The notes below the pieces were generated by a model, which saw only the letters and a list, made by a program, of their open reading frames with translations, ran no database searches and was not told the DNA's origin. From a virus, in IMG/VR virus record IMGVR_UViG_3300009702_000071, positions 1 through 26,115 of that record: a DNA stretch of 26,115 nt; one strand, 5' to 3'. A program made the position numbers and the translations under genes. Shown one piece after another: positions 218-26,115 of the stretch. Position 1 is the stretch's first letter. Each line of letters begins with the position of its first letter.

Positions 218-664
218 GTGGACGAAACAAGACCACAATTATTTTCATGTCCCTACTGTGACACGATAACAACGTTTTCACTTAATGGCTTACGTGTACA
301 CTGCTACAGGCACAAGGTCAGTTCCAAGCAACTGTACGTTGAACTGTTCTGCAATGGCACGCCACCAACGTGCAAGTGTGGTTGCGGAGAGGCTGTCAAC
401 TTCTACTCAATTCACGGAGGATTTAAAACGTTCAAGCGAGGTCACCAGGCGCGTGTCCACAATAACTGGTGCCATAATAGCACGGCGCTCAAGAAGAGCC
501 AAGACGTTCGCCGTGAACAGATCACTGATGGTGACATTGAAAGGAAGCGAGCCATCACCAATTGGATGGCAGATTATCACCTTGTCAACAACGTTTCAGG
601 CCTCGTTTTATGTAAATCATGTCACGATCTCGTTCATAAGAATGACAATTCATCAGCCGCATGA
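218..664 (+). CDS. Zinc-finger HNH homing endonuclease-like protein
   Basis: 148 aa from a GTG start; no in-frame ATG lies near. Residues 11-32 form a C2H2-like finger (C11, C14, H28, H32). Residues 40-81 hold a CxCxC cluster and a GHQARV stretch that closely resembles residues 38-81 of the next gene. The C-terminus (121-140) looks like the end of an HNH nuclease: H121, then C132xxC135-H136 and H140. HNH enzymes of this kind nick or cut DNA and often spread themselves as free-standing mobile genes in phages. The gene sits between the tail tube gene and other tail genes, the usual setting for such an intruder. The HNH part is compact and the first catalytic His is not in a classic DHI/HHI context, so the protein may be weakly active or decayed. 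Zinc-module and HNH-end recognition is good; activity is inferred. Confidence 0.68.
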   Translation: MDETRPQLFSCPYCDTITTFSLNGLRVHCYRHKVSSKQLYVELFCNGTPPTCKCGCGEAVNFYSIHGGFKTFKRGHQARVHNNWCHNSTALKKSQDVRREQITDGDIERKRAITNWMADYHLVNNVSGLVLCKSCHDLVHKNDNSSAA

Positions 665-681
665 TTTGATAGTTTGTTACA

Positions 682-2346
682 ATGGCCTATGAACGTATCA
701 AATGTCCCAAGTGTAACAAGACATTTGGACAAGAATCTCGTTTCATTGTGCATCTAAGGGTTGAACATGATATCTCAGATCCTGAATCGTTCTATGTTGA
801 ACTTTACAGCAATGGCAAGCACCCGACGTGCGCATGTTCTGTTAACTGTGACAAGAAACTCAGGTGGAGCGGATGGAAAAATGGCTTCATGTCCATGTAT
901 GCACGTGGCCACAATGCCCGCGTAGACAGTGTTTATCTCAATCCTAAACGCCAGCAAGAGTTTGTTGCAAAGCGTCTTGATGGATTTAAAACGGGACGGA
1001 TCAAGCCTTGGAATAAGGATCTATCAAAAGAAACAGATCCCCGCGTTGCTCGTCAGGCTGAAACAATATCGAAGAGTCTGCGTGATGCACATGCAACTGG
1101 TGAGCTTCAAGATTGGCGAGCCTTAGATCCGGATAAAGCCCGCCAGGCGGCGAAACAATGTTCAAAAACAATGTTAACACGGTTTGCATCTGGTGAGCTG
1201 GTTCCATGGAACAAGGGACTCACGAAGGCAAGTGATGTTCGGCTCTCTGCAATGTCAAACTCGTTAAGGGAAAAGCTTAGTTCTGATCCAACAACATCTG
1301 CAAGGCGTTTTACGTCACAGGAACTTATCAAACTGATCGATCAGGTGTCAGGCGGCAGGTTTATCATGTTAAGTGATCCAAAGACATACAGGAACAAGTA
1401 CCAACGTATGTTATTCAAGTGTACGGTGTGTAATGAAGTTCAAGAGAAGAATCTGATGATGCTTGTGTCATCTCCAATCTGTTTTCACTGTCACCCCAAG
1501 GAATCGCAAGGTCAGCTCGAGGTACTTGATTTTGTGCGGTCGCTTGGTGTTGAGGCACTATCAAATGATCGTTCTGTGATCACCCCTCTTGAGCTTGATA
1601 TCTGGATTCCGGCGTCCCGTGTTGCGATCGAATACAATGGTCTCTATTGGCATTCAATGGCATGCATGAATGATGCATGTTATCATCAGAAAAAATTACG
1701 TGCATGTTCTGATGTTGGTGTTAGGTTGTTATCTGTCTATGAAGATGAATGGCGAGATCACAGAGAGATCATTGAAGGTATGATTAGACATCGTCTTGGG
1801 AAACAAATTCGTACGTTTGATGCACGAAAGCTTGAACTTCGCGAACTTACACGTGATGAAAGTAAGAATTTTTTCAATGCAAATCACCTTGAAGGTTATG
1901 TTCGTTCTGTAACAACATATGGTCTCCTTGACAAGGGCTCAGTGATTGCAGCAACGTCTCTTAGAAGACCATTTCACAAGACGTATGCAGATTTGTATGA
2001 ACTTGCTCGTTCATGTACCGTGCGTGATGCAAACGTACGCGGTTGGCTGGGTCGTCTATCGAAGGCAATCAGTTCAAGGGCCAAAGCCGATGGAAAGAAA
2101 GGGATTATCACGTACGTTGATTCCCGTGTAGGTCCAGGTCAAGGATACAAGAATGCGGGATGGGAGTTGGTTGCTTCTTCAACGGGTAAACGCTTCTGGT
2201 GGACTGATTTTGTGCATCGTTACAATAGGTTCAAGTACAGAGCAGATCGTTCACGAGGTATGTCACAAGGTGATGTTGCAAATGAAGCTGGCGTTGTTGA
2301 GATCTTTGGTTGTGACAATTCACGTTGGATATTACAAACTATATGA
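682..2346 (+). CDS. Composite homing endonuclease, EDxHD/Vsr-like with NUMOD3 repeats
   Basis: 554 aa from ATG. Parts in order: a C2H2 finger (C8, C11, H24, H29); a cysteine module (50-81) shared with the preceding gene; two NUMOD3-like repeats built around PWNKDLSKETD (109-119) and PWNKGLTKASD (175-185); a zinc-ribbon-like pair (C247/C250 with C267/C270); and a nuclease core with E280, LELDIWIP (D306), VAIEYNGLYWH (E317, H324) and YEDEW (353-357), the pattern of Vsr-like EDxHD homing nucleases such as I-Bth0305I. The C-terminus (about 385-525) resembles the acetyltransferase-fold-like domain often attached to phage endonucleases, with ITYVDSR, a GYKNAGWE stretch and HRYNRFKYR. It starts 17 bases after the HNH gene and is probably a mobile gene inserted beside it. 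Family assignment is confident; target site and activity are unknown. Confidence 0.82.
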   Translation: MAYERIKCPKCNKTFGQESRFIVHLRVEHDISDPESFYVELYSNGKHPTCACSVNCDKKLRWSGWKNGFMSMYARGHNARVDSVYLNPKRQQEFVAKRLDGFKTGRIKPWNKDLSKETDPRVARQAETISKSLRDAHATGELQDWRALDPDKARQAAKQCSKTMLTRFASGELVPWNKGLTKASDVRLSAMSNSLREKLSSDPTTSARRFTSQELIKLIDQVSGGRFIMLSDPKTYRNKYQRMLFKCTVCNEVQEKNLMMLVSSPICFHCHPKESQGQLEVLDFVRSLGVEALSNDRSVITPLELDIWIPASRVAIEYNGLYWHSMACMNDACYHQKKLRACSDVGVRLLSVYEDEWRDHREIIEGMIRHRLGKQIRTFDARKLELRELTRDESKNFFNANHLEGYVRSVTTYGLLDKGSVIAATSLRRPFHKTYADLYELARSCTVRDANVRGWLGRLSKAISSRAKADGKKGIITYVDSRVGPGQGYKNAGWELVASSTGKRFWWTDFVHRYNRFKYRADRSRGMSQGDVANEAGVVEIFGCDNSRWILQTI

Positions 2347-2365
2347 TTCTACGTAGATCGTAGAA
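2347..2365 (+). other. Perfect 7-bp hairpin after the endonuclease gene
   Basis: TTCTACG (2347-2353) and CGTAGAA (2359-2365) are exact reverse complements around the 5-base loop TAGAT. It begins one base after the stop codon of the 554-aa endonuclease gene. No T-run follows, so it is not a classic intrinsic terminator. It could stabilise the 3' end of the message or be a processing site. Confidence 0.35.
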
Positions 2366-2400
2366 GTACACATTGATCCAATTTTGCATAGTTACACTTT

Positions 2401-2676
2401 ATGAATGATTTATTCAAAAAGGATGTTTTTAAGATGTTGTATGCCAATCGCATTGCACAAGCAAATGCACTGATGTTGGAGGTTGAAGAGCGAGGTCTTG
2501 GAACACGTGATATTTTGTCAGCAGTGCAGGACGCCGCTGACCTTGCACAGGATGTTGAGGGACTTGCTGCTCAATTTAAACGGGATGGTGATTCCACTGC
2601 CGCTGCGAAGGCGAAGAAACTCGCTCGACAATTGCAGAAGATCACTGCTGAATTGCACCAACTTACAAAGAGTTAA
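2401..2676 (+). CDS. Small helical protein of unknown function
   Basis: 91 aa if it starts at ATG 2401. That start has no visible Shine-Dalgarno sequence. A second in-frame ATG at 2434 lies about 10 bases after AGGA (2420-2423), so an 80-aa product is also possible. The protein is almost wholly predicted helix, rich in Ala, Gln, Lys and Glu, with heptad-like spacing of hydrophobics through the second half (DAADLAQDVEGLAAQF and onward). It has no signal peptide, membrane segment or cysteine. I do not recognise a family. Its position between the endonucleases and the baseplate genes suggests a small virion or assembly protein, but nothing in the sequence proves this. Confidence 0.6.
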   Translation: MNDLFKKDVFKMLYANRIAQANALMLEVEERGLGTRDILSAVQDAADLAQDVEGLAAQFKRDGDSTAAAKAKKLARQLQKITAELHQLTKS

Positions 2677-2740
2677 TACTAAGACTTAGACTGTGAAGAA
2701 GTTGCTTACTCAAGTACACTGTGTTATGTGCAAAGATCAC

Positions 2741-2746
2741 TATAAT
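2741..2746 (+). promoter_or_regulatory. Candidate -10 box TATAAT
   Basis: A perfect TATAAT lies 62 bases upstream of the ATG at 2809 in a 132-base gap, the longest gap of the tail module. The hexamer 17 bases upstream (ACTGTG) is a poor -35 box, and there is no TG extension. This is a weak candidate for a host sigma-70-type promoter. Confidence 0.2.
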
Positions 2747-2808
2747 GATGGTATGATTTGATCATGGCACCATGAAGGTGGTTAATCAATAGTCAAGGAA
2801 AACATGTA

Positions 2809-3132
2809 ATGTTGGAATTTGATCCGTCAATGCTTGAGTTTGATGAATACCAAATGAATCAACTAAAGATGACCCGTTCTCTTGCAGATCGTCTTGCCTC
2901 TCGTGCAGCAATGTTGTTTCATAGGAAACTTCGACCTGTGTATGTTGGTACTGTATCACTTGAGATCGGCGTCGGCCTGAAACGTACGATGATCATCATT
3001 GATGCAATGGTTCGAGCAGGTCATCTTCGCCGACTTCAACGTAAGGAGCTACGCGCCATTGACGCACCCAAAGGTGCATTTGTATACGTGCTAGCATCTG
3101 AGCGTCACATTGGTTGGGGTTATATGCCTTAA
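2809..3132 (+). CDS. Small protein, possible winged-helix DNA-binding fold
   Basis: 107 aa from ATG, with AAGGA (2795-2799) nine bases upstream. The N-terminus has a repeated motif (MLEFDPSMLEFDEY). Residues about 47-98 read like a winged helix-turn-helix: GTVSLEIGVGL as a first helix and turn, KRTMIIIDAMVRAGHLRRL as a recognition helix ending in the usual A-G-H/L turn, and a beta wing ending AFVYVLA. The C-terminus is IGWGYMP. Winged helices in small phage proteins are usually transcription regulators or terminase-like DNA binders. Its location inside a tail cluster is unusual for a regulator, so a structural role is an alternative. The fold is inferred from pattern only. Confidence 0.6.
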   Translation: MLEFDPSMLEFDEYQMNQLKMTRSLADRLASRAAMLFHRKLRPVYVGTVSLEIGVGLKRTMIIIDAMVRAGHLRRLQRKELRAIDAPKGAFVYVLASERHIGWGYMP

Positions 3133-3227
3133 TAACGTACTGTATCAAAAACAGCCTGGCATGTGTATCTGATTCGTATTTACGTCTATCTTGGCAGTTA
3201 ATATGATTGCAAAAGGATGAGGCCCAG

Positions 3228-4088
3228 ATGAGCGAAAACCGTAGTCAGAATGAAGTATTTGCACCGACCACACACGCACCAGTTGCTGAGAAATCAACGG
3301 CAAGTGATAATGTCAAGGTTGAATATGGCGTTGATACACCCGTAGAGACTGTTCCACTTCCATCAAACGGTCTTGTATATCCACCTGATTCTGCATTGCA
3401 TAAGCAAACGAATGTTGAAATTAGGGCAATGACAACCCGTGAAGAGGATATTCTAACCAGTGCAGCCTTGTTGAAGAAGGGCACTGTGATCAGTGAACTG
3501 ATCAAGGGATGTCTTGTTAATCATGCGATCAATCCCACAGAGATGCTTATGGGCGACCGCAATGCACTCATGGTTGCGATTAGAATCACTGGATACGGTG
3601 CAAGCTATGATGCAGAAGTAGTATGTAGTGAGTGTGATGTAAAGACACCACGTGAATTCAACCTTGCAGAGCTTCCTATCAAGAGGTTAACGATTGAACC
3701 TGTCACCGAGGGTCAGAATCTCTTTGAATTCAAACTGCCAAGATCAAAACGACTTGTTAGATTCAAGTTTTTGACAGGTGCAGATGAACAAGATCTCCAA
3801 ATTGAAGCAGAGAGGAACAAGAAATTAGGAATGAAGAGTGATAACCAAATCACTAGTCAACTGCTTCACAGCATTGTTTCTATTGAGGGGCTTTCAAACA
3901 GGACAGAGGTTGCAAGTTACATCAGACGCATGGCGGCCGCCGACTCGTATGCACTGAGAAAGTACATGCGTAAGAACGAACCAGGCATCCAGATGCGTCA
4001 GGAGGTGACGTGTCAACAGTGCGGCGCCATGGAGGTCGTCGCAATGCCTATTGGTGTCTCGTTTCTTTGGCCTGGCGCCGACGAATAA
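3228..4088 (+). CDS. Baseplate protein, T4 gp26 family (T4_baseplate)
   Basis: 286 aa. I chose ATG 3228 because GAGG (3219-3222) lies five bases upstream; an in-frame TTG at 3207 would add seven residues but lacks that support. After a disordered N-terminus (1-40) comes PLPSNGLVYP (43-52), then VEIRAMTTREEDILTS, ALLKKGTVISELIKGCLV and GDRNALMVAIRITGYG (109-124), a run typical of T4_baseplate-family proteins in T4-like phages. Two pairs, C133xxC136 and C262xxC265, probably bind one zinc ion. The C-terminus ends in SFLWP. Family members act in baseplate hub or central baseplate assembly. The last 35-38 bases overlap the next gene in another frame. The family call is good; the exact T4 counterpart (gp26 or gp51) is uncertain. 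Confidence 0.82.
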   Translation: MSENRSQNEVFAPTTHAPVAEKSTASDNVKVEYGVDTPVETVPLPSNGLVYPPDSALHKQTNVEIRAMTTREEDILTSAALLKKGTVISELIKGCLVNHAINPTEMLMGDRNALMVAIRITGYGASYDAEVVCSECDVKTPREFNLAELPIKRLTIEPVTEGQNLFEFKLPRSKRLVRFKFLTGADEQDLQIEAERNKKLGMKSDNQITSQLLHSIVSIEGLSNRTEVASYIRRMAAADSYALRKYMRKNEPGIQMRQEVTCQQCGAMEVVAMPIGVSFLWPGADE

Positions 4089-4335
4089 GGAAGAGCTCAT
4101 CCTCGAGCCAATATTTCTTCTGATGTATTACGGGGGATTCTCATACAGGGAAGTTTTTCATCTTCCCGTTTCGTACAAGCGTTGGTACATACAACGTATT
4201 GTCAAGGAATTGAATCGTGGTGAGGATGAGAATGTAAACACTTCACGTGCACTGCACCATAATGATCCTGGAACACGTGAGTTGATGGGAATGCAGCGTT
4301 CACAATCACCATCTAGGTTGCGAAGATTCACATAA
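4054..4335 (+). CDS. Small baseplate-assembly-type protein downstream of gp26-like gene
   Basis: 93 aa from GTG 4054; a TTG at 4051 would add one residue. It overlaps the end of the gp26-like gene by 35 bases in the +1 frame. I keep the upstream start because FFGLAPTNKEELI, encoded within and just after the overlap, looks like genuine protein, and no later start has a ribosome site. The core PIFLLMYYGGFSYREVFHL followed by PVSYKRWYIQRIVKELN reads as an amphipathic helical domain. Similar short proteins follow T4_baseplate-family genes in other myoviruses, as I remember them. The C-terminus is polar and probably disordered. Likely a partner or chaperone for the preceding baseplate protein, expressed by translational coupling. 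Function is inferred from context. Confidence 0.65.
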   Translation: MSRFFGLAPTNKEELILEPIFLLMYYGGFSYREVFHLPVSYKRWYIQRIVKELNRGEDENVNTSRALHHNDPGTRELMGMQRSQSPSRLRRFT

Positions 4336-4672: not shown

Positions 4673-7600
4673 ATGGCCAACCAAGAGGACCAACTAAAAC
4701 TAACGATGCAGATCGCGGCCGCAACCGACCGCGTTGCACGAACGTTAGAGAAGATCGAAGGTTCCTACCAAACGCAGGTAGGAACAGTTCAGAAGCTTGC
4801 AACTGTCATCAGCCAGATGAACGTTGACAAGGCGACTGATGCAGTTGCCAAGTTGCATGATACTGTTGATAAGCTTGTAAAAGGACTTGACAAGGTAGGT
4901 GATCTAAGCGAGAAAAATCTTGATGACTTAGGTCGTGAGGCTCAGAAAACAAATAATACAATGCGTTCACTTGGTGCTAGCGTGAATGAAACCGGTAAGC
5001 AGATGACAACTGCAACCGACGCCAGCGCCGCAAGCGTGCAATCCATTCAAGAAAAACTTGAAGGTGCGGTTAGTGAAATGGATCTCATGCAGGAGTCTAG
5101 TTCTGCTACTGCTGCATCATGGGGTAAAGTTGCCAAGAGAGGTACGATGCTTGGTGCTGTTGTTAGTGGTCTTCATCAAGGTTTTCAGAATGTCATTGGT
5201 CTGAGTAGGGGATTGTTTAGTTTCTTTGCAGGTATCGCCTCGGGTGCGGCAAATATCACCGCATCGATCATTTCAATTCCACTTAAGATCTTTACCGGTA
5301 TTGTTGACTTTGCTGCAAAGGCACCCACTGGAATAAGTGATTTCCTGACGCAGATAAAGGAACTAATGAAGCAATTTGGAGCGCTGGGCGGTCCTGGTGC
5401 TCATGCTGTGCTTCAAGTGACTCGTCATTTGAAGGGATTTTCTGCAACTGGGCTGTCAGCCTGGCGTATCTTTGGAACGATTGCAGAACGTATGCAAGAA
5501 GTACGTGAGGTTGCAACTGCCATGGGTCCGGCATTCAATACACAGCGTGAGGATTTCAAGAAAAACGGTGGTGCAATCCTAGCGTACAGGAAGGCGTTGG
5601 GTATAGCGACAGAAGACATGGGTGCAATGGCCAATCGTGCAACAACGATGGGTAAACCCATGAGCAGCATGTTTCTTGAGATGAGCAAGCAGTCGCTTGG
5701 TCTTGGTAAGGCCTTCAACATCGATCAGAAGTTAATTGCTCGTGACATGTCAAAGGCAATGACTGATGTTGCGCACTTTGGTCAGTCAACAGTCGCGCAG
5801 ATTGGTAGGGCAACAGTATACTCTAGAAAGTTGGGTGTTGAATTAAGTAAGATTACGGGTATCCTTGACGCCTTTGAAACGTTTGATAGCGCCGCAGAGA
5901 ATGCAGCTAAGCTGTCACAGTCATTCGGTGTAACAGTTGATGCATTCAAGATGATGGAGGCTCAAAATCCTGATGAGCAGATTGAGATGCTCCGTAAGCA
6001 GTTTAAACTTGCAAATGTGGATACATCAACCTTCAACCGTCAGCAATTGAAATTGTTGTCATCGACCACGGGATTGGATGCAGCAACTGCAAAGCAGGTC
6101 TTCTCACTGAAGAATCAGGGCGTATCTCTTGATGAGATTAAGAAGAAAAGCAAGGATGCAAAGAACCAACAACTTACCCAGGCACAGGCAATGTCAAAGC
6201 TTGCCGATTCAATCGAACGACTGGTTAAGACTGCGCCTCAGTTGAAAGGTAACTTCTTTGATATGTTCGTCAAGGGTTTCTTTAGAGGTATGCAATCAAG
6301 CAGGGAATTCCGACGGACGATCTACAACATCAAGTATGCACTTGTGGCAACAATGATGGAAGGCGTCAAATTGGGTAGGATCTTCGTTAAGATATTTCCG
6401 GGTGTGAAGGAATTCTTTGGAGGTCTGCGTGATTTCTTTGCACCGAGTCATTTTCGGACATTTTTTGGTGGTATCACTAAAGAGTTTAAAGCTTTTTTTC
6501 AGCGAGTTCAGACAGGAAATTATTCTGTTGATGAATTGATGAAGGGATTACGTAAACGCTTCTTTGACTTTTTTGACATGAGTAAACCTTCTGGCATAAA
6601 AATTATTGAAGGATTTAAATCATTCATGGCCGCATTTGTTGGTATTATAAGTGCGCTGATACCAAAGATTGCGCATGAATTGGGCAAAGGTTTTGGAATG
6701 ATTGGTGATTTTCTGAACAACCCATCAAGTATGCTTGCAAAAATGAAATCAAAGGCGACTTCAGGCGGCGGCTTTTTGATGACACTTTTGGCCCCTATTA
6801 TACATAGCTTATATACCGTCTGGAAGGATCCAACTCTTCGTAATGGTCTTCATAAGTTTGTTTTTGGGATTGGTTATCAACTTAAAAAGATCGTAAAATC
6901 GTCAATATTTAAGAAGGTCGCAATTGGTGTTGCCGGAAGCCTTGCCGCAGTATTGTTAGGACCAACTGTACTGCATGCCATTCTCGGAGGTATGCTTACG
7001 ACGATTGGCGGTTCTGCCATGCGAATGATCGGTGGATTATTTACGAAGAAGGCAGGGGCGGGCCTATTGAAGAAAGCAGGTGGCAAAGGCATCGGAAAGC
7101 TTGCTGGTGCCGCCGGTCCAATTGGTGCAATTATTGCGGCGGGTGTAGCAGTTGGTGGTGGTGTTAACAAGTATACTAGCAAGATTACGAGTACGCTTGA
7201 TCACTCAAGTAAGGTATTAGGCGCCGGTGCAACCGGTATTCTTGATGCCATTACGTTGGGTCTATTACCGGATAATTTAACGATTAAATTTGCAAATATC
7301 TTTGCAAAACTTGCCGATGCTATTTTTGATTCAATGGGTAAGATTTTTGGTCATGGTTTCGCTAATTCGATTAAGAGAAAACTTACATCATCATTTGAAG
7401 TATTAGGAAGCATCTATGGGTTCTTTGCGGCGATGTTTGGCAATGGTGATCAAGCATCATTTGATGCCGCCGCGAAAGATCTTGGATTATCATTGTTACG
7501 ACTTGTTGTCAATTCATTTGAATTCTTTCAAGTACAACTACCAATGTTTGTAGGACGTATTATTGTTAAAGTGTTATCGCTTATCGGTAAGATGACAGTT

Positions 7601-8545
7601 AAATCTGTTGCATTTTCGCTTGGTCTTTTGGCGAAGGGTGTTGACAGTGCATTAGGCACGCATTTAAGTGAAAGGGTTAACAAGCTGAGTAACGTAACAA
7701 ATGCTATAATTAATAAGGGATCGAAGAAGATAACGGCTTCAATGCTTGATGCATCTAACAAGATTGACGCGCAAACAGGCAAATTTGTTAATAAACACCT
7801 ACGAGCAGCAGAAGTCCAGGCTCATGCAGCGTCCGCGGCGGCGAAGAAAATACAAACTAGCAAAAAAAGTTCTGCGAAGGCTCATAATAAAAAGTTGGAG
7901 AATACGCTTGATACAACACTTGAAAAGATTCGATCAGCAAAGCAAATTAGGAAGGAACTCAAAACATCGGGTGGCACGTTTAAAGCATTAATGTCTGATA
8001 TTAGAAAGCAACTCAAGGGTGCTGATTTCAACGTTCTTTCTAAGACTCAAGTTGAATCACTTAAAAAATCAGGTGAAAGTGTTGATTCTGCTAGTGACGT
8101 TATATCAAATGTTACAAACATGCTCTCAAATATCGGTAATATTCCGCATGTTATCAAGGGTGCAACAAATGCTCTTAAAGCGGGTGGTACTGCTCCTGCA
8201 ATTAAAGCGGTGAAATCGATGATTAAGCTCGCAAATGAACTTGATTCAACGTTGTCAGAGGGAAACCTTAACAAGCTTGACGTTCAAGCAAAACTTAAGC
8301 GCGTTGCTGAAAATGTAGGTATGGGTGCAAAGGGTAACTACACGATTAAGAACAAGAACGTGAACGTAACTGTGAATCTTGAGGTGAACATTAATGCAGA
8401 GGACCTAGAGAAGGCGCTTATCATGCGTACCAAGTCAAAGATTCGTCAACGTCTAAATTGGATGGCACAGAATCCAACACAACAGGGCGGTCCGGATATT
8501 CCGGGCAAGACGTCGGGTGACCTGCAGGATATTAGGAAGATTTGA
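4673..8545 (+). CDS. Tail tape measure protein
   Basis: 1290 aa, one of the longest genes here. The N-terminus is coiled-coil-like and polar (about 1-150). Hydrophobic helices follow at roughly 165-220, 648-666, 741-790 and 811-830, the last two rich in Gly and Ala (GSLAAVLLGPTVLHAILGG; AAGPIGAIIAAGVAVGGG). A long Lys-rich helical region (about 1020-1140) follows and a beta-rich C-terminus (NKNVNVTVNLEVNINAEDLE). This layout, together with its size and place between tail tube/baseplate and hub genes, is typical of tape measure proteins, which set tail length and leave the tail during DNA ejection, often with membrane-inserting segments. I see no lysozyme, M23 peptidase or transglycosylase motif. 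The stop overlaps the next start (TGATG). Confidence 0.85.
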   Translation: MANQEDQLKLTMQIAAATDRVARTLEKIEGSYQTQVGTVQKLATVISQMNVDKATDAVAKLHDTVDKLVKGLDKVGDLSEKNLDDLGREAQKTNNTMRSLGASVNETGKQMTTATDASAASVQSIQEKLEGAVSEMDLMQESSSATAASWGKVAKRGTMLGAVVSGLHQGFQNVIGLSRGLFSFFAGIASGAANITASIISIPLKIFTGIVDFAAKAPTGISDFLTQIKELMKQFGALGGPGAHAVLQVTRHLKGFSATGLSAWRIFGTIAERMQEVREVATAMGPAFNTQREDFKKNGGAILAYRKALGIATEDMGAMANRATTMGKPMSSMFLEMSKQSLGLGKAFNIDQKLIARDMSKAMTDVAHFGQSTVAQIGRATVYSRKLGVELSKITGILDAFETFDSAAENAAKLSQSFGVTVDAFKMMEAQNPDEQIEMLRKQFKLANVDTSTFNRQQLKLLSSTTGLDAATAKQVFSLKNQGVSLDEIKKKSKDAKNQQLTQAQAMSKLADSIERLVKTAPQLKGNFFDMFVKGFFRGMQSSREFRRTIYNIKYALVATMMEGVKLGRIFVKIFPGVKEFFGGLRDFFAPSHFRTFFGGITKEFKAFFQRVQTGNYSVDELMKGLRKRFFDFFDMSKPSGIKIIEGFKSFMAAFVGIISALIPKIAHELGKGFGMIGDFLNNPSSMLAKMKSKATSGGGFLMTLLAPIIHSLYTVWKDPTLRNGLHKFVFGIGYQLKKIVKSSIFKKVAIGVAGSLAAVLLGPTVLHAILGGMLTTIGGSAMRMIGGLFTKKAGAGLLKKAGGKGIGKLAGAAGPIGAIIAAGVAVGGGVNKYTSKITSTLDHSSKVLGAGATGILDAITLGLLPDNLTIKFANIFAKLADAIFDSMGKIFGHGFANSIKRKLTSSFEVLGSIYGFFAAMFGNGDQASFDAAAKDLGLSLLRLVVNSFEFFQVQLPMFVGRIIVKVLSLIGKMTVKSVAFSLGLLAKGVDSALGTHLSERVNKLSNVTNAIINKGSKKITASMLDASNKIDAQTGKFVNKHLRAAEVQAHAASAAAKKIQTSKKSSAKAHNKKLENTLDTTLEKIRSAKQIRKELKTSGGTFKALMSDIRKQLKGADFNVLSKTQVESLKKSGESVDSASDVISNVTNMLSNIGNIPHVIKGATNALKAGGTAPAIKAVKSMIKLANELDSTLSEGNLNKLDVQAKLKRVAENVGMGAKGNYTIKNKNVNVTVNLEVNINAEDLEKALIMRTKSKIRQRLNWMAQNPTQQGGPDIPGKTSGDLQDIRKI

Positions 8546-22727: not shown

Positions 22728-25211
22728 ATGAATAAAATATACACGTACGATGAAGTGCGTGAAGCATCACTCGCTTATTTCGATGGCGATCAACTAGCCG
22801 CAAGTACATTTGCTGACAAGTATGCGCTACAGGATTTGCAAAACAATTATCATGAGTTGACACCTGTTGACATGCACAAACGCATGGCAAATGAGTTTGC
22901 AAGGATTGAATCACTGTACAATAATCCGTTGTCGTACGATGAAATCCTAGCACTCTTTGCTGATTGGACTGTAATACCTCAGGGAAGTCCAATGTCAGCG
23001 TTAGGTAACAAATTTCAAATACAGTCACTATCAAACTGTTTTGTAATCGATTCACCACATGATTCGTATGGTGGTATTCTGCACACCGATCAGGAACAGG
23101 TTCAGATTATGAAGCGCCGTGGAGGCATTGGATTTGATCTCTCAACGATTAGGCCAAAGGGATGCACTGCAGCAAATGCAGCAAGGACAACTGATGGTAT
23201 TGCAGTATTCATGGAACGCTTTTCAAACACGTGTGAAGAGTGTGCGCAGAACGGTCGTCGTGGAGCGCTTATGCTTACGATGCATGTTGCACACCCAGAG
23301 GTGTTAACATTTGCAAATATTAAGCGTGATAGATCAAAGGTAACAGGCGCAAATGTCTCTGTGCGTTTGACAGATGAATTCATGCGTGCAGTTGAAAAGG
23401 GTGACAAATACAGACAATGTTTTCCCGTTGAAGGCGATGGTCCTAAACTTGTTGATCGCATGGTTGATGCTCGTGAAGTATGGGAAAACATAATCAAGGC
23501 AACACGTGATTGTTCAGAACCCGGGTATCTTTTTTGGGACACAATCAAGCGCAATACTCCAACAGATGCGTATCCAGAATTTGCAACAAAGTCAACAAAT
23601 CCCTGTGGAGAGATAGTTCTCACGCCATATGACTCGTGTAGATTATTGCTCATCAATCTTAGCAAGTTTGTACACAAACCTTTCACACCAGACGCATGTT
23701 TTGACATGAATGTATTTGATGATGTTGTTAGAAAATCACAGCGTCTTATGGATGATCTTGTTGATCTTGAACTTGAAGCCGTTGACAAGATACTTGCAAA
23801 GATTGAGTCTGATCCTGAGCCTGAATACATCAAGGTTACAGAACAAAATTTGTGGAAAAAGATCAAGAAGATGGGGCAGCGCGGTCGTAGAACGGGATTG
23901 GGTCTCACTGCACTTGGCGATATTTTTGCCTACCTTGGCATGGCATATGGTTCAGATGAAAGTATCAGATTGACAGATGAGATCTATAAACATCTTGCAC
24001 TGAATTCGTATCGTAGTTCTGTAAGATTGGCAGAAGAGCGCGGGGCATTTCCTGCATTTGATCATGGACTAGAAAACAATCATCCATTCATTAACAAGAT
24101 CCTTGATCTCGATCCGGATCTTAGAGAACGTTACAATAAGTTTGGTCGTCGTAACATTGCAAACACAACAACCGCTCCAGCAGGTTCAACAAGCATCCTT
24201 GCAAAGACAACGTCGGGTTGTGAACCTGTTGTGTTTATTGACGCAGATAGGTTCAAAAAGAACGTACCTGGCATGAAAAATCCTCGTGTTGATAAGATTG
24301 ATGAAAAGGGTATTGCATGGCAGAAGTTCAAGGTGTTTCATGAGGGTGTCAAACTTTGGATGGACGTTACTGGCGAGAGTGATGTAACTAAATCACCCTA
24401 TGCGGGGTCAACGGTTGAAGAGATTGATCACCTTAAGAAGGTTGATATACAAGCCGCGGCCCAGAATTGGGTATGTCACAGCATTAGCAACACAACCAAT
24501 TTACCGAATGACGTTACGTCTGAGAAGGTTGCATCACTTGCAATGCGTTCTTGGAAAACAGAATGTAAGGGTCTGACAATCTACAGGATTGGTTCCCGTG
24601 ATGCAGTGATTAAAAAGGCTTCTGTTGAAAATGAACCTGAAAAGTTGTTTAAGATCACTGAGACACACGCGCCAAAGCGACCCAAAGAACTTCCCTGTGA
24701 TATTCACCGTGTAAGTGTGAAAGGTGAACAATACGTTGTCTTTGTGGGTAAGCTCGGTAATCGTCCATACGAGATCTTTGCCGGTCTTTCTGAATATGTT
24801 GAGGTGCCTCGTAAGGTGAAGAACGGTGTGCTTATCAAGAACGGAAAACACAACGGTGTTGTAACATACAACCTACGAATTCCAATTGGAAGTGATGATG
24901 ACATGTTGATCAAGAACATTGTTAATTTGTTTGCTAATGCTGAACACGGTGCATTCACACGAACATTGTCACTTGCACTTCGTCATGGTGTACCCGTACA
25001 GTACATTGTTGAACAGCTGCGCAAGGACAAGAAGAGTGACATGTCATCGTTCAGCTCTGTGATTGCAAGGGTTCTTAGCAAGCAATACATACCCGACGGT
25101 ACATCTGCAAAAACATTTGAGAAGCTCTGCCCAGAATGTAACAGTGATGGTCTCACGTATCAACAAGGGTGCATCACATGTTTTAATTGTGGTTACAGCA
25201 AATGTGCCTAG
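22728..25211 (+). CDS. nrdJ: Ribonucleotide reductase, class II (adenosylcobalamin-dependent)
   Basis: 827 aa from ATG 22728, with GGAG 11 bases upstream. Active-site motifs are clear: SNCFV (C104) and YDSCRL (C304), the redox pair; NPCGE (291-295) with the thiyl-radical C293, N291 and E295; and NIANTTTAPAGSTSIL, the phosphate-binding loop. It ends in a cysteine-rich tail (C801, C804, C815, C818, C821, C826), a zinc-finger and redox segment typical of class II enzymes. Residues about 645-745 correspond to the TSCPD-like domain. There is no NrdB partner gene nearby, which fits class II. It reduces ribonucleotides to deoxyribonucleotides using B12 as radical source, so the host must make or import cobalamin. 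I see no cobalamin riboswitch in the 66-base leader. Confidence 0.92.
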   Translation: MNKIYTYDEVREASLAYFDGDQLAASTFADKYALQDLQNNYHELTPVDMHKRMANEFARIESLYNNPLSYDEILALFADWTVIPQGSPMSALGNKFQIQSLSNCFVIDSPHDSYGGILHTDQEQVQIMKRRGGIGFDLSTIRPKGCTAANAARTTDGIAVFMERFSNTCEECAQNGRRGALMLTMHVAHPEVLTFANIKRDRSKVTGANVSVRLTDEFMRAVEKGDKYRQCFPVEGDGPKLVDRMVDAREVWENIIKATRDCSEPGYLFWDTIKRNTPTDAYPEFATKSTNPCGEIVLTPYDSCRLLLINLSKFVHKPFTPDACFDMNVFDDVVRKSQRLMDDLVDLELEAVDKILAKIESDPEPEYIKVTEQNLWKKIKKMGQRGRRTGLGLTALGDIFAYLGMAYGSDESIRLTDEIYKHLALNSYRSSVRLAEERGAFPAFDHGLENNHPFINKILDLDPDLRERYNKFGRRNIANTTTAPAGSTSILAKTTSGCEPVVFIDADRFKKNVPGMKNPRVDKIDEKGIAWQKFKVFHEGVKLWMDVTGESDVTKSPYAGSTVEEIDHLKKVDIQAAAQNWVCHSISNTTNLPNDVTSEKVASLAMRSWKTECKGLTIYRIGSRDAVIKKASVENEPEKLFKITETHAPKRPKELPCDIHRVSVKGEQYVVFVGKLGNRPYEIFAGLSEYVEVPRKVKNGVLIKNGKHNGVVTYNLRIPIGSDDDMLIKNIVNLFANAEHGAFTRTLSLALRHGVPVQYIVEQLRKDKKSDMSSFSSVIARVLSKQYIPDGTSAKTFEKLCPECNSDGLTYQQGCITCFNCGYSKCA

Positions 25212-25341: not shown

Positions 25342-25698
25342 ATGAAGATTTCACTACGTCAACTTCGTAAGATCATCAAGGAAGTGGCAATGTCACCGTC
25401 CTTTGGAAAGAACAACAAACCGGTGGGTTCACCGTTCGAGAGCAAGAAATTGAAGGAAGGCCTTGCTAGCGTTCAGAATTCATTCCTACAGGCTGTAGAA
25501 CGTGATCTTGTTCTTGCGTCTTGGTCATCTGCATATGATGAAGGTAGCAGAGAATTCAAAGACGATGTATACGATCGTATTAAAAAGACGGGTACAACCG
25601 TGACAAATGAAATGATGCATGACATTGAAAAGGTGATCAATGCAGCATGGCAGAAGGCACATCAAGCTGCATCTACCGGTGGTCAGAAGGCAGCATAA
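25342..25698 (+). CDS. Small protein with LRKIIKE N-terminal tag, unknown function
   Basis: 118 aa from ATG 25342, with AAAGGA ending five bases upstream. The N-terminus MKISLRQLRKIIKEVAMS matches the shared tag of the following two genes. After a Gly/Pro linker (SPSFGKNNKPVGSP) comes a helical, charged domain (about 37-110). No cysteine, membrane segment or known motif is seen. The tag contains I-K-E, which fits the L/I-x-E recognition of T4-type prohead proteases, so the leader could be removed in the capsid. That is inference. Alternatively the tag could mediate another shared interaction. Confidence 0.62.
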   Translation: MKISLRQLRKIIKEVAMSPSFGKNNKPVGSPFESKKLKEGLASVQNSFLQAVERDLVLASWSSAYDEGSREFKDDVYDRIKKTGTTVTNEMMHDIEKVINAAWQKAHQAASTGGQKAA

Positions 25699-25710
25699 AG
25701 AAAGACTACA

Positions 25711-25929
25711 ATGAAGCTTACAAAGACAACATTACGCAAGATGATTCGTGAAGAGCAAACCCGTCAGCGTCGTAGACGGAAGCTTAAGGAATCATCAAAT
25801 AACGAAGAAAAGCAAGCGCTTGATCTAATGCGTAAGGTGTTAATTCACTTGAAGGATATGGGTGAATACAAGTTTTTTGATGCAGGTGCAAAGTTCTTCA
25901 AAGAAATGGAAAGTTCATTTAAGGGTTGA
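25711..25929 (+). CDS. Very small basic protein with LRKMIREE N-terminal tag
   Basis: 72 aa from ATG 25711, 12 bases after the previous stop. The leader MKLTKTTLRKMIREE is followed by a strongly basic stretch (QTRQRRRRKLKESS) and then a helical C-terminus (EEKQALDLMRKVLIHLKDM and onward, ending in a short amphipathic segment). The Arg-rich part suggests nucleic acid binding, as would suit a packaged DNA-binding protein if the leader is a head-targeting signal. I do not recognise a family. Shine-Dalgarno support is weak (AAGAAAG). Confidence 0.6.
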   Translation: MKLTKTTLRKMIREEQTRQRRRRKLKESSNNEEKQALDLMRKVLIHLKDMGEYKFFDAGAKFFKEMESSFKG

Positions 25930-25935
25930 TGATTA

Positions 25936-26115
25936 ATGAAACTCCGAATTGGCGATCTTCGACAGATTATCTCTGAGGAATATCTCAGGGGTGTACCGGA
26001 ATTCGTGATACGTGAGGAAACAAGAAAGTTTGTTGATGGTATCCGGCAGCAACTCAGAAGACATGTGTTCATGACAATGGGTAACCCTGTCATGGAAAGA
26101 GAGAACCTTGCTGCG
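25936..26115 (+). CDS. Small protein with LRQIISEE N-terminal tag (3' end cut off)
   Basis: ATG 25936 opens a frame that is still open at the window end (60 codons). The N-terminus MKLRIGDLRQIISEEYLRG is the third copy of the tag in a row. The next residues (PEFVIREETRKFVDGIRQQL) are helical and charged. AAGGG lies about ten bases upstream, overlapping the end of the previous gene. Length, function and C-terminus cannot be judged from this window. Confidence 0.6.
   Translation, partial: MKLRIGDLRQIISEEYLRGVPEFVIREETRKFVDGIRQQLRRHVFMTMGNPVMERENLAA

Follow-up and report, generated by a model that had tools for sequence, protein, structure and literature searches.

A probable capsid-targeting leader of 15 residues shared by unrelated proteins of T4-like giant phages

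Three tagged genes downstream of a ribonucleotide reductase

The stretch of DNA analysed in this work (referred to below as the window) is a viral contig of 26,115 bases from IMG/VR, whose features are listed in Table 1. The gene order in the window leads from a set of T4-like tail genes, inclusive of a T4-type baseplate protein that ties it to the T4-like myophages and a tape-measure-like protein, through a series of replication genes and a ribonucleotide reductase (RNR) to three open reading frames (ORFs), the last of which is cut by the window end. The RNR, which is nearest to the B12-dependent RNRs of phages, served as a synteny anchor. No head genes are present in this 26-kb contig. Just upstream of the tail cluster, an HNH-like ORF and a homing-endonuclease-like protein are also found, and for these two neighbours matches to phrog_3339 and phrog_559 were obtained.

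The proteins encoded by the three ORFs begin with MKISLRQLRKIIKEV, MKLTKTTLRKMIREE and MKLRIGDLRQIISEE, respectively, and they have in common the pattern MK-x-LR-x-(I/M)I-x-E(E/V), which is referred to here as the tag. The DNA pattern for the tag is matched three times in the window, these matches being the three ORFs, and not once in 100 dinucleotide shuffles; with an expectation of 0 in the window, chance was rejected as an explanation. In BLASTP comparisons, the similarity between proteins 1 and 2 is confined to residues 1-12, and no similarity was detected between proteins 2 and 3. The preliminary description of this DNA had placed the three ORFs correctly and had rightly held their bodies to be unlike, but it allowed the shared leader a length of 15-18 residues, whereas this length is fixed at 15 residues without gaps. 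Its further suggestion that the motifs IKE, IRE and ISE fit the L/I-x-E site of a T4-type prohead protease is borne out, as I-x-E is present at residues 12-14 in all three cases. In AlphaFold models of the products of genes 1 and 3, a confidently predicted helical body is seen and the tag forms a separate helix of lower confidence at residues 5-16; a fold search with gene 1 gave no significant match.

Table 1. Positions of genes and predicted features in the window (aa, amino acids)
Feature	Position	Strand	Remarks
HNH-like ORF	218-664		
Homing-endonuclease-like protein	682-2346		554 aa
T4-type baseplate protein	3207-4088	+	PF12322
Tape-measure-like protein	4673-8545		T4-like tail gene set
Polymerase-like gene	15213		Replication gene; named from our reading of the translation
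HD protein	16455		Replication gene
gp32-like ssDNA-binding protein	17494		Replication gene
RecA-like gene	18527		Replication gene; named from our reading of the translation
dUTPase-like gene	19714		Replication gene; named from our reading of the translation
5'-3' exonuclease	20267		Replication gene
Helicase-like gene	21234		Replication gene; named from our reading of the translation
RNR	22728-25211	+	
Tagged gene 1	25342-25698	+	118 aa; ATG start; putative cargo
Leader of gene 1	25342-25383	+	MKISLRQLRKIIKE; predicted cut after E14, site IKE (gp21 L/I-X-E rule, PMC9026906)
Tagged gene 2	25711-25929	+	72 aa; ATG start; putative cargo; basic RRRRK stretch past the tag
Leader of gene 2	25711-25752	+	MKLTKTTLRKMIRE; predicted cut after E14, site IRE
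Second LKE of gene 2	25783-25791	+	Residues 25-27
Tagged gene 3	25936-26115	+	60 aa visible; ATG start; putative cargo
Leader of gene 3	25936-25977	+	MKLRIGDLRQIISE; predicted cut after E14, site ISE

Distribution of the tag and its relation to the protein bodies

In a census of the viral contigs of IMG/VR, at least 120 stretches were matched by a strict tag pattern. Among the matches listed, 246 distinct tagged ORFs were aligned, and the tag is exactly 15 residues long in 243 of them, with the consensus M-K-(I/L)-T-K-x-Q-L-R-x-I-I-K-E-E; some tags finish in E-A, E-V or E-S. The bodies of 112 non-redundant tagged proteins show a mean column identity of 5%, and few of these proteins match any known family. 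Where domains are recognised they begin behind the tag, viz. an AAA_33 kinase from residue 28, YkuD from residue 67 and HAD_SAK_1 from residue 71. With a less strict pattern, 114 matches were obtained in the forward direction, distributed over 18 of the 21 records that bear an S77 protease, as compared with one match for the reversed pattern. In 257 Gb of prokaryote genomes the strict pattern was matched in 8 stretches, all of them in MAGs, and one of these MAG contigs (G081:C5), in which ten tags are found together with an S77 protease, is most simply explained as being of phage origin. Judged by these searches, the tag is inferred to be phage-specific. When the consensus tag was used in tblastn, a single uncultured record was recovered, LR756508, in which two ORFs are tagged. 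No tag was present near the RNR in LR745206, LR756500 and MT835965, which are relatives based on this enzyme, or at the head region of the cultured Microcystis phage Mel-JY01; the head region of the cultured Flavobacterium phage immuto (NC_055915) contains one tag candidate, a hypothetical protein near the terminase gene (KNV73_gp080, YP_010114603; L225:3188-3946) with the tag-like start MKKSQLRQIIKEAL.

A search with a 981-aa protein from the baseplate region identified 25 relatives. Synteny extends over the whole window in three long records, viz. G005 (369 kb), G033 (278 kb) and G049 (293 kb): their tail and replication genes are in the same order, and their RNRs are 44-63% identical to that of the window. 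The genome-wide search for tagged proteins that was put forward in the preliminary description was productive in these records, each of which has about 20-35 tagged genes for unrelated proteins; based on a profile trained on the putative cargo, the ORFs above the top shuffled score number 29 in G033, 37 in G049 and 21 in G005. The tagged genes form clusters, and about 20 of them lie within 47.6-57.9 kb of G049. Orthologs of gene 1 which have kept the tag are located directly downstream of the RNR in G005, G010 and G017, and orthologs of gene 3 (87-136 aa) are present in seven relatives; in G005 both are found behind the RNR, and six further relatives have genes 1 and/or 3. For gene 2, no ortholog was found among the relatives examined. 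Nearly all of the gene 1 and gene 3 orthologs start with a recognisable tag (e.g. MRVRLGTLKRILREVAVSPS and MKVRVGDVRRVIREEYLRGVP), the exception being the gene 3 ortholog of L292, which has a longer N-terminus (IKLNERQLRDIANDESRRIVTE). Across distant phages the overall identity is 31-36% for gene 1 and 36-72% for gene 3. Direct searches with gene 1 in a phage collection and in viral contigs were unsuccessful because the bodies diverge too fast, and its orthologs could be located only by means of synteny behind the RNR. In G010, a row of four tagged-looking genes follows the RNR. In G013 one protein holds two fused tags, and in the gene 3 ortholog at L286:8602-9009 a zinc-finger-like segment resembling that of DnaJ (CxxCxGxG) is inserted exactly between the tag and the body; findings such as these show the tag to be a module. 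Two tandem tags within single proteins, as if cargo genes had been fused, were also observed at L145:4916 (- strand) and L290:5402-5906 (+ strand).

The predicted cleavage site, the prohead protease and the core proteins

The propeptides of phage T4 consist of 10-19 residues, have affinity for the core and are removed by cleavage after the motif L/I-X-E, gp21 cutting behind the Glu (PMC9026906). As the pattern used in our census required the Glu of this site, ORFs in G005, G033 and G049 were also picked by residues 1-9 only, and in 42 of the 57 ORFs obtained in this manner [ILVM][ILVM]xE comes next. A second [LI]xE is present at +3/+4 behind the tag in 85 of 238 proteins, as compared with a mean of 7.2 and a maximum of 17 in 2000 shuffles; away from the tag, L/I-x-E occurs at about 1% per position. 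Proteases of this kind usually have several sites in one propeptide (PMC5694885).

A Peptidase_S77 domain is found in 19 of the 32 tagged contigs of at least 30 kb versus 2 of 27 random contigs (Fisher 2.5e-5), and in 8 of the 9 tagged contigs of at least 100 kb. For this test the tagged contigs were drawn among the matches listed and the control contigs, none of the 27 containing the tag, were sampled by an unrelated pattern; the contigs are partly redundant and not phylogenetically independent. The nine tagged, S77-negative contigs that were checked are all without a gp23 capsid gene, i.e. without the head cluster. One contig, G024 (154 kb), which is tagged but has no S77 protease, was considered as a counter-example and rejected as uninformative, because gp23 is missing from it as well. 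The presence of the protease alone is no predictor of the tag, because many S77 phages (T4, G078 and G079) are without it. The gp21-like prohead protease that the preliminary description had looked to is thus present in the syntenic relatives, the window contig itself having no head region. The proteases of G005, G033 and G049 match PF03420 with E values of 9e-25 to 4e-29, and that of G033 also matches phrog_207 (4e-52). In six aligned sequences, H85 and S140 of T4 gp21, which we take to be the catalytic His and Ser, are invariant together with their surroundings. As in T4 gp21, the S77 proteases of the relatives have L/I-x-E near their own N-termini. The head genes of G005, G033 and G049 are in the order terminase, portal, one gene, S77 protease, small genes, a scaffold-like gene (product of 560-700 aa) and gp23, where the names terminase and scaffold rest on position and our reading. 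When the gp23 sequences are aligned, E65 of the T4 protein falls on VLKE/VLRE, and therefore the class of the cut site is conserved in the same genomes.

Two short proteins are encoded between the protease and the scaffold gene. The first of these, which is gp68-like (138-164 aa), starts with MKMTRNELKDLVKECLVEILSEG in G033, MAKISKSMLKGIVKECLVEILAEG in G049 and MPLTRGELKALVKELIVEVLSEG in G005. The second is gp67-like (78-110 aa) and starts with MKLTSNLLKRIIMQEVAKF in G033, and its near relatives in L044 and other records bear the canonical tag (MKLTSQLLRRIIEEEVAKF); it was not identified in G005. Their positional counterparts in T4 are gp68 (141 aa) and gp67 (80 aa, containing DLIKEEKIAIARNFLIEGE), which are similarly small, have L/I-x-E sites, and whose genes lie next to that of the protease and precede that of the capsid protein. 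However, the core genes of the relatives come after the protease, whereas those of T4 come before it, and no homology was detected between them by Pfam or PHROGs, the names used here being based on position and size only. With a cargo-only profile, from which this core family was excluded, the two core proteins of G033 rank 21 and 18 of 1132 ORFs and the core protein of G005 ranks 8 of 2458, and these proteins score above every shuffled control. In the other records, when small register shifts are allowed, most core proteins also beat the shuffled controls, the few below them being the gp67-like protein of G028, the gp68-like protein of G015 and a core protein of G042. Because the core proteins carry tag-like N-terminal helices, it may be inferred from the sequences that mimicry of the N-terminal helix of a core protein gives cargo access to the prohead core.

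Proposed capsid targeting and the alternative explanations

Based on these observations, we are largely confident that the N-terminus of 15 residues serves T4-like giant phages as a capsid-targeting leader, although packaging and cleavage are inferred and not shown. In the mechanism envisaged, the tag would fold into a short helix similar to the one with which the small prohead-core proteins of the same phage begin, and the tagged proteins would, by an inferred binding to the core, join it during prohead assembly. The S77 protease is then predicted to cut behind I-x-E, after Glu14, and in many cases at another L/I-x-E shortly downstream as well, whereby the body would be set free within the head. 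If they are indeed packaged, the bodies would remain with the DNA and would probably be ejected into the host. The module, the site and second site, the protease, the resemblance to core proteins and the restriction to phages are the parts that can be read from sequence data; every part of the capsid-targeting reading of the preliminary description that is testable in this way was positive, and the presence in virions, the cut and the injection are unshown. No virion proteome was found for any tag-bearing phage, and no description of the tag was found in the open literature searched by tag strings and keywords, subscription journals not being covered.

In terms of functional class, the tag would be a capsid-targeting sequence (CTS) of the T4 type, as a shared short leader, a terminal L/I-x-E and, in the relatives, a gp21-type protease are all present. 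The CTS of the T4 proteins IPI, IPII and IPIII is likewise N-terminal, starts with MK, ends in L/I-x-E and is found on unrelated small proteins of a phage with a gp21-type protease. However, it has 10 residues (IPII and IPIII read MKTYQEFIAEA), whereas the tag has 15 with a basic LRxII core, frequently has a second cleavage motif, is present on tens of cargo genes as compared with three plus Alt in T4, and is also found on core proteins. There is no sequence match between the two, the profile score of T4 IPIII (-30) being far below those of tags and cores, and because of this lack of similarity the tag is to be viewed, as far as such comparisons go, as an analogue of the T4 CTS with its own sequence and not as the T4 signal. 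The large phages of the SPN3US/phiKZ group load many inner-head proteins from which a prohead protease removes N-terminal propeptides, and in the diverged paralogs gp53 and gp54 of this group the first 15 residues are identical (PMC5694885). However, most propeptides of these phages exceed 100 residues and have AxE/SxE as their motif, and the protease of phiKZ belongs to family S80 instead of S77.

If the tag brought proteins into the prohead as structural parts of its core or scaffold, then these would be degraded and gone before DNA packaging and would not be injected cargo. This possibility, which we consider unlikely but deserving of attention, is in keeping with the core proteins being the closest kin of the tag and with the T4 core proteins being cut to pieces that mostly exit (PMC9026906). 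However, a genome encodes tens of different proteins with the tag, some of which have enzyme domains, and scaffolding is therefore unlikely for most of them; in addition, L/I-x-E is concentrated at the tag and not spread through the bodies. The tag could also be a docking peptide for another phage complex (viz. the replisome, the transcription/translation machinery or a membrane site) or a stability signal, in which case I-x-E is merely a part of the helix. The amphipathic and basic character of the helix, and the location of the tagged genes of the window after the replication genes and the RNR and not among head genes, are compatible with such a role, but we give it little weight in view of the same helix on small proteins encoded between the protease and the capsid gene, the independent enrichment of the second L/I-x-E, the association with S77 and the occurrence of tagged genes both within and outside the head clusters, like the T4 ip genes.

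Paralogy was rejected. The three genes are adjacent, on the same strand and of similar length, and two of the three bodies are helical in the AlphaFold models, as might be the case if they were tandem duplicates whose bodies had diverged and whose N-terminus was changing most slowly. However, this is very improbable, as nothing is similar past the tag by BLASTP, the orthologs of genes 1 and 3 keep the identities given above in distant phages and bodies therefore do not disappear that fast, the bodies across phages are of different known folds, and the insert in L286 sits exactly at the tag/body border. A DNA element (promoter, operator, translation enhancer or recombination site) over the start codons that makes the peptides alike, with which the location at gene starts would agree, was also rejected and is hardly credible, because different codons encode the shared residues, synonymous codons varying at every conserved residue and the pairwise nucleotide identity of the 45 tag bases being just 51-58% among the window genes, and the bases upstream are not in common; the tag is, by the same codon differences, conserved at the protein level.

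With capsid targeting as the preferred interpretation, some of the tagged bodies are of interest as putative cargo. Adjacent tagged genes at L128:297-1510, for a 2H phosphoesterase-like protein (tRNA_lig_CPD, slightly below the cut-off) and a P-loop AAA_33 kinase, are possibly a packaged RNA-repair pair, and a tagged YkuD L,D-transpeptidase (L140:6258-7055) and a tagged PAP2-type phosphatase (G033:45718-46431) are possible injected envelope enzymes; that RNA repair and envelope enzymes act as first-minute effectors is plausible, but it is an inference. A broader proposal, for which we regard the case as evenly balanced, is that the tag represents a widespread, undescribed cargo-loading code of T4-like giant phages, in which a tag copying the core helix is present on 20-35 genes per genome and each virion would carry a large, exchangeable arsenal of enzymes (e.g. 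an RNA-repair kinase and 2H phosphoesterase, a cell-wall L,D-transpeptidase and phosphatases) acting at the first moment of infection. If this is true, then a simple text search for the tag would list the proteins that are placed in the heads of these phages, and hundreds of "hypothetical proteins" of uncultured large phages, many of them adjacent in cargo islands, would become likely injected effectors or counter-defence proteins. Capsid targeting, known in detail from the few internal proteins of T4, would then extend to tens of genes per phage, targeting by means of the imitation of core proteins would be suggested, and a new short tag would be available for loading foreign proteins into phage heads.

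A second, distinct N-terminal tag, M(N/K)xLREYIRELLxE, was observed on five consecutive unrelated genes of G049 (1430-4313, + strand), and also at positions 221322, 245412 and 291820 of the same record, at L064:600 (- strand) and at L132:2402 (+ strand). It resembles the N-termini of S77 proteases from other phages, such as that of L158 (MKLLREYYELCEGG).
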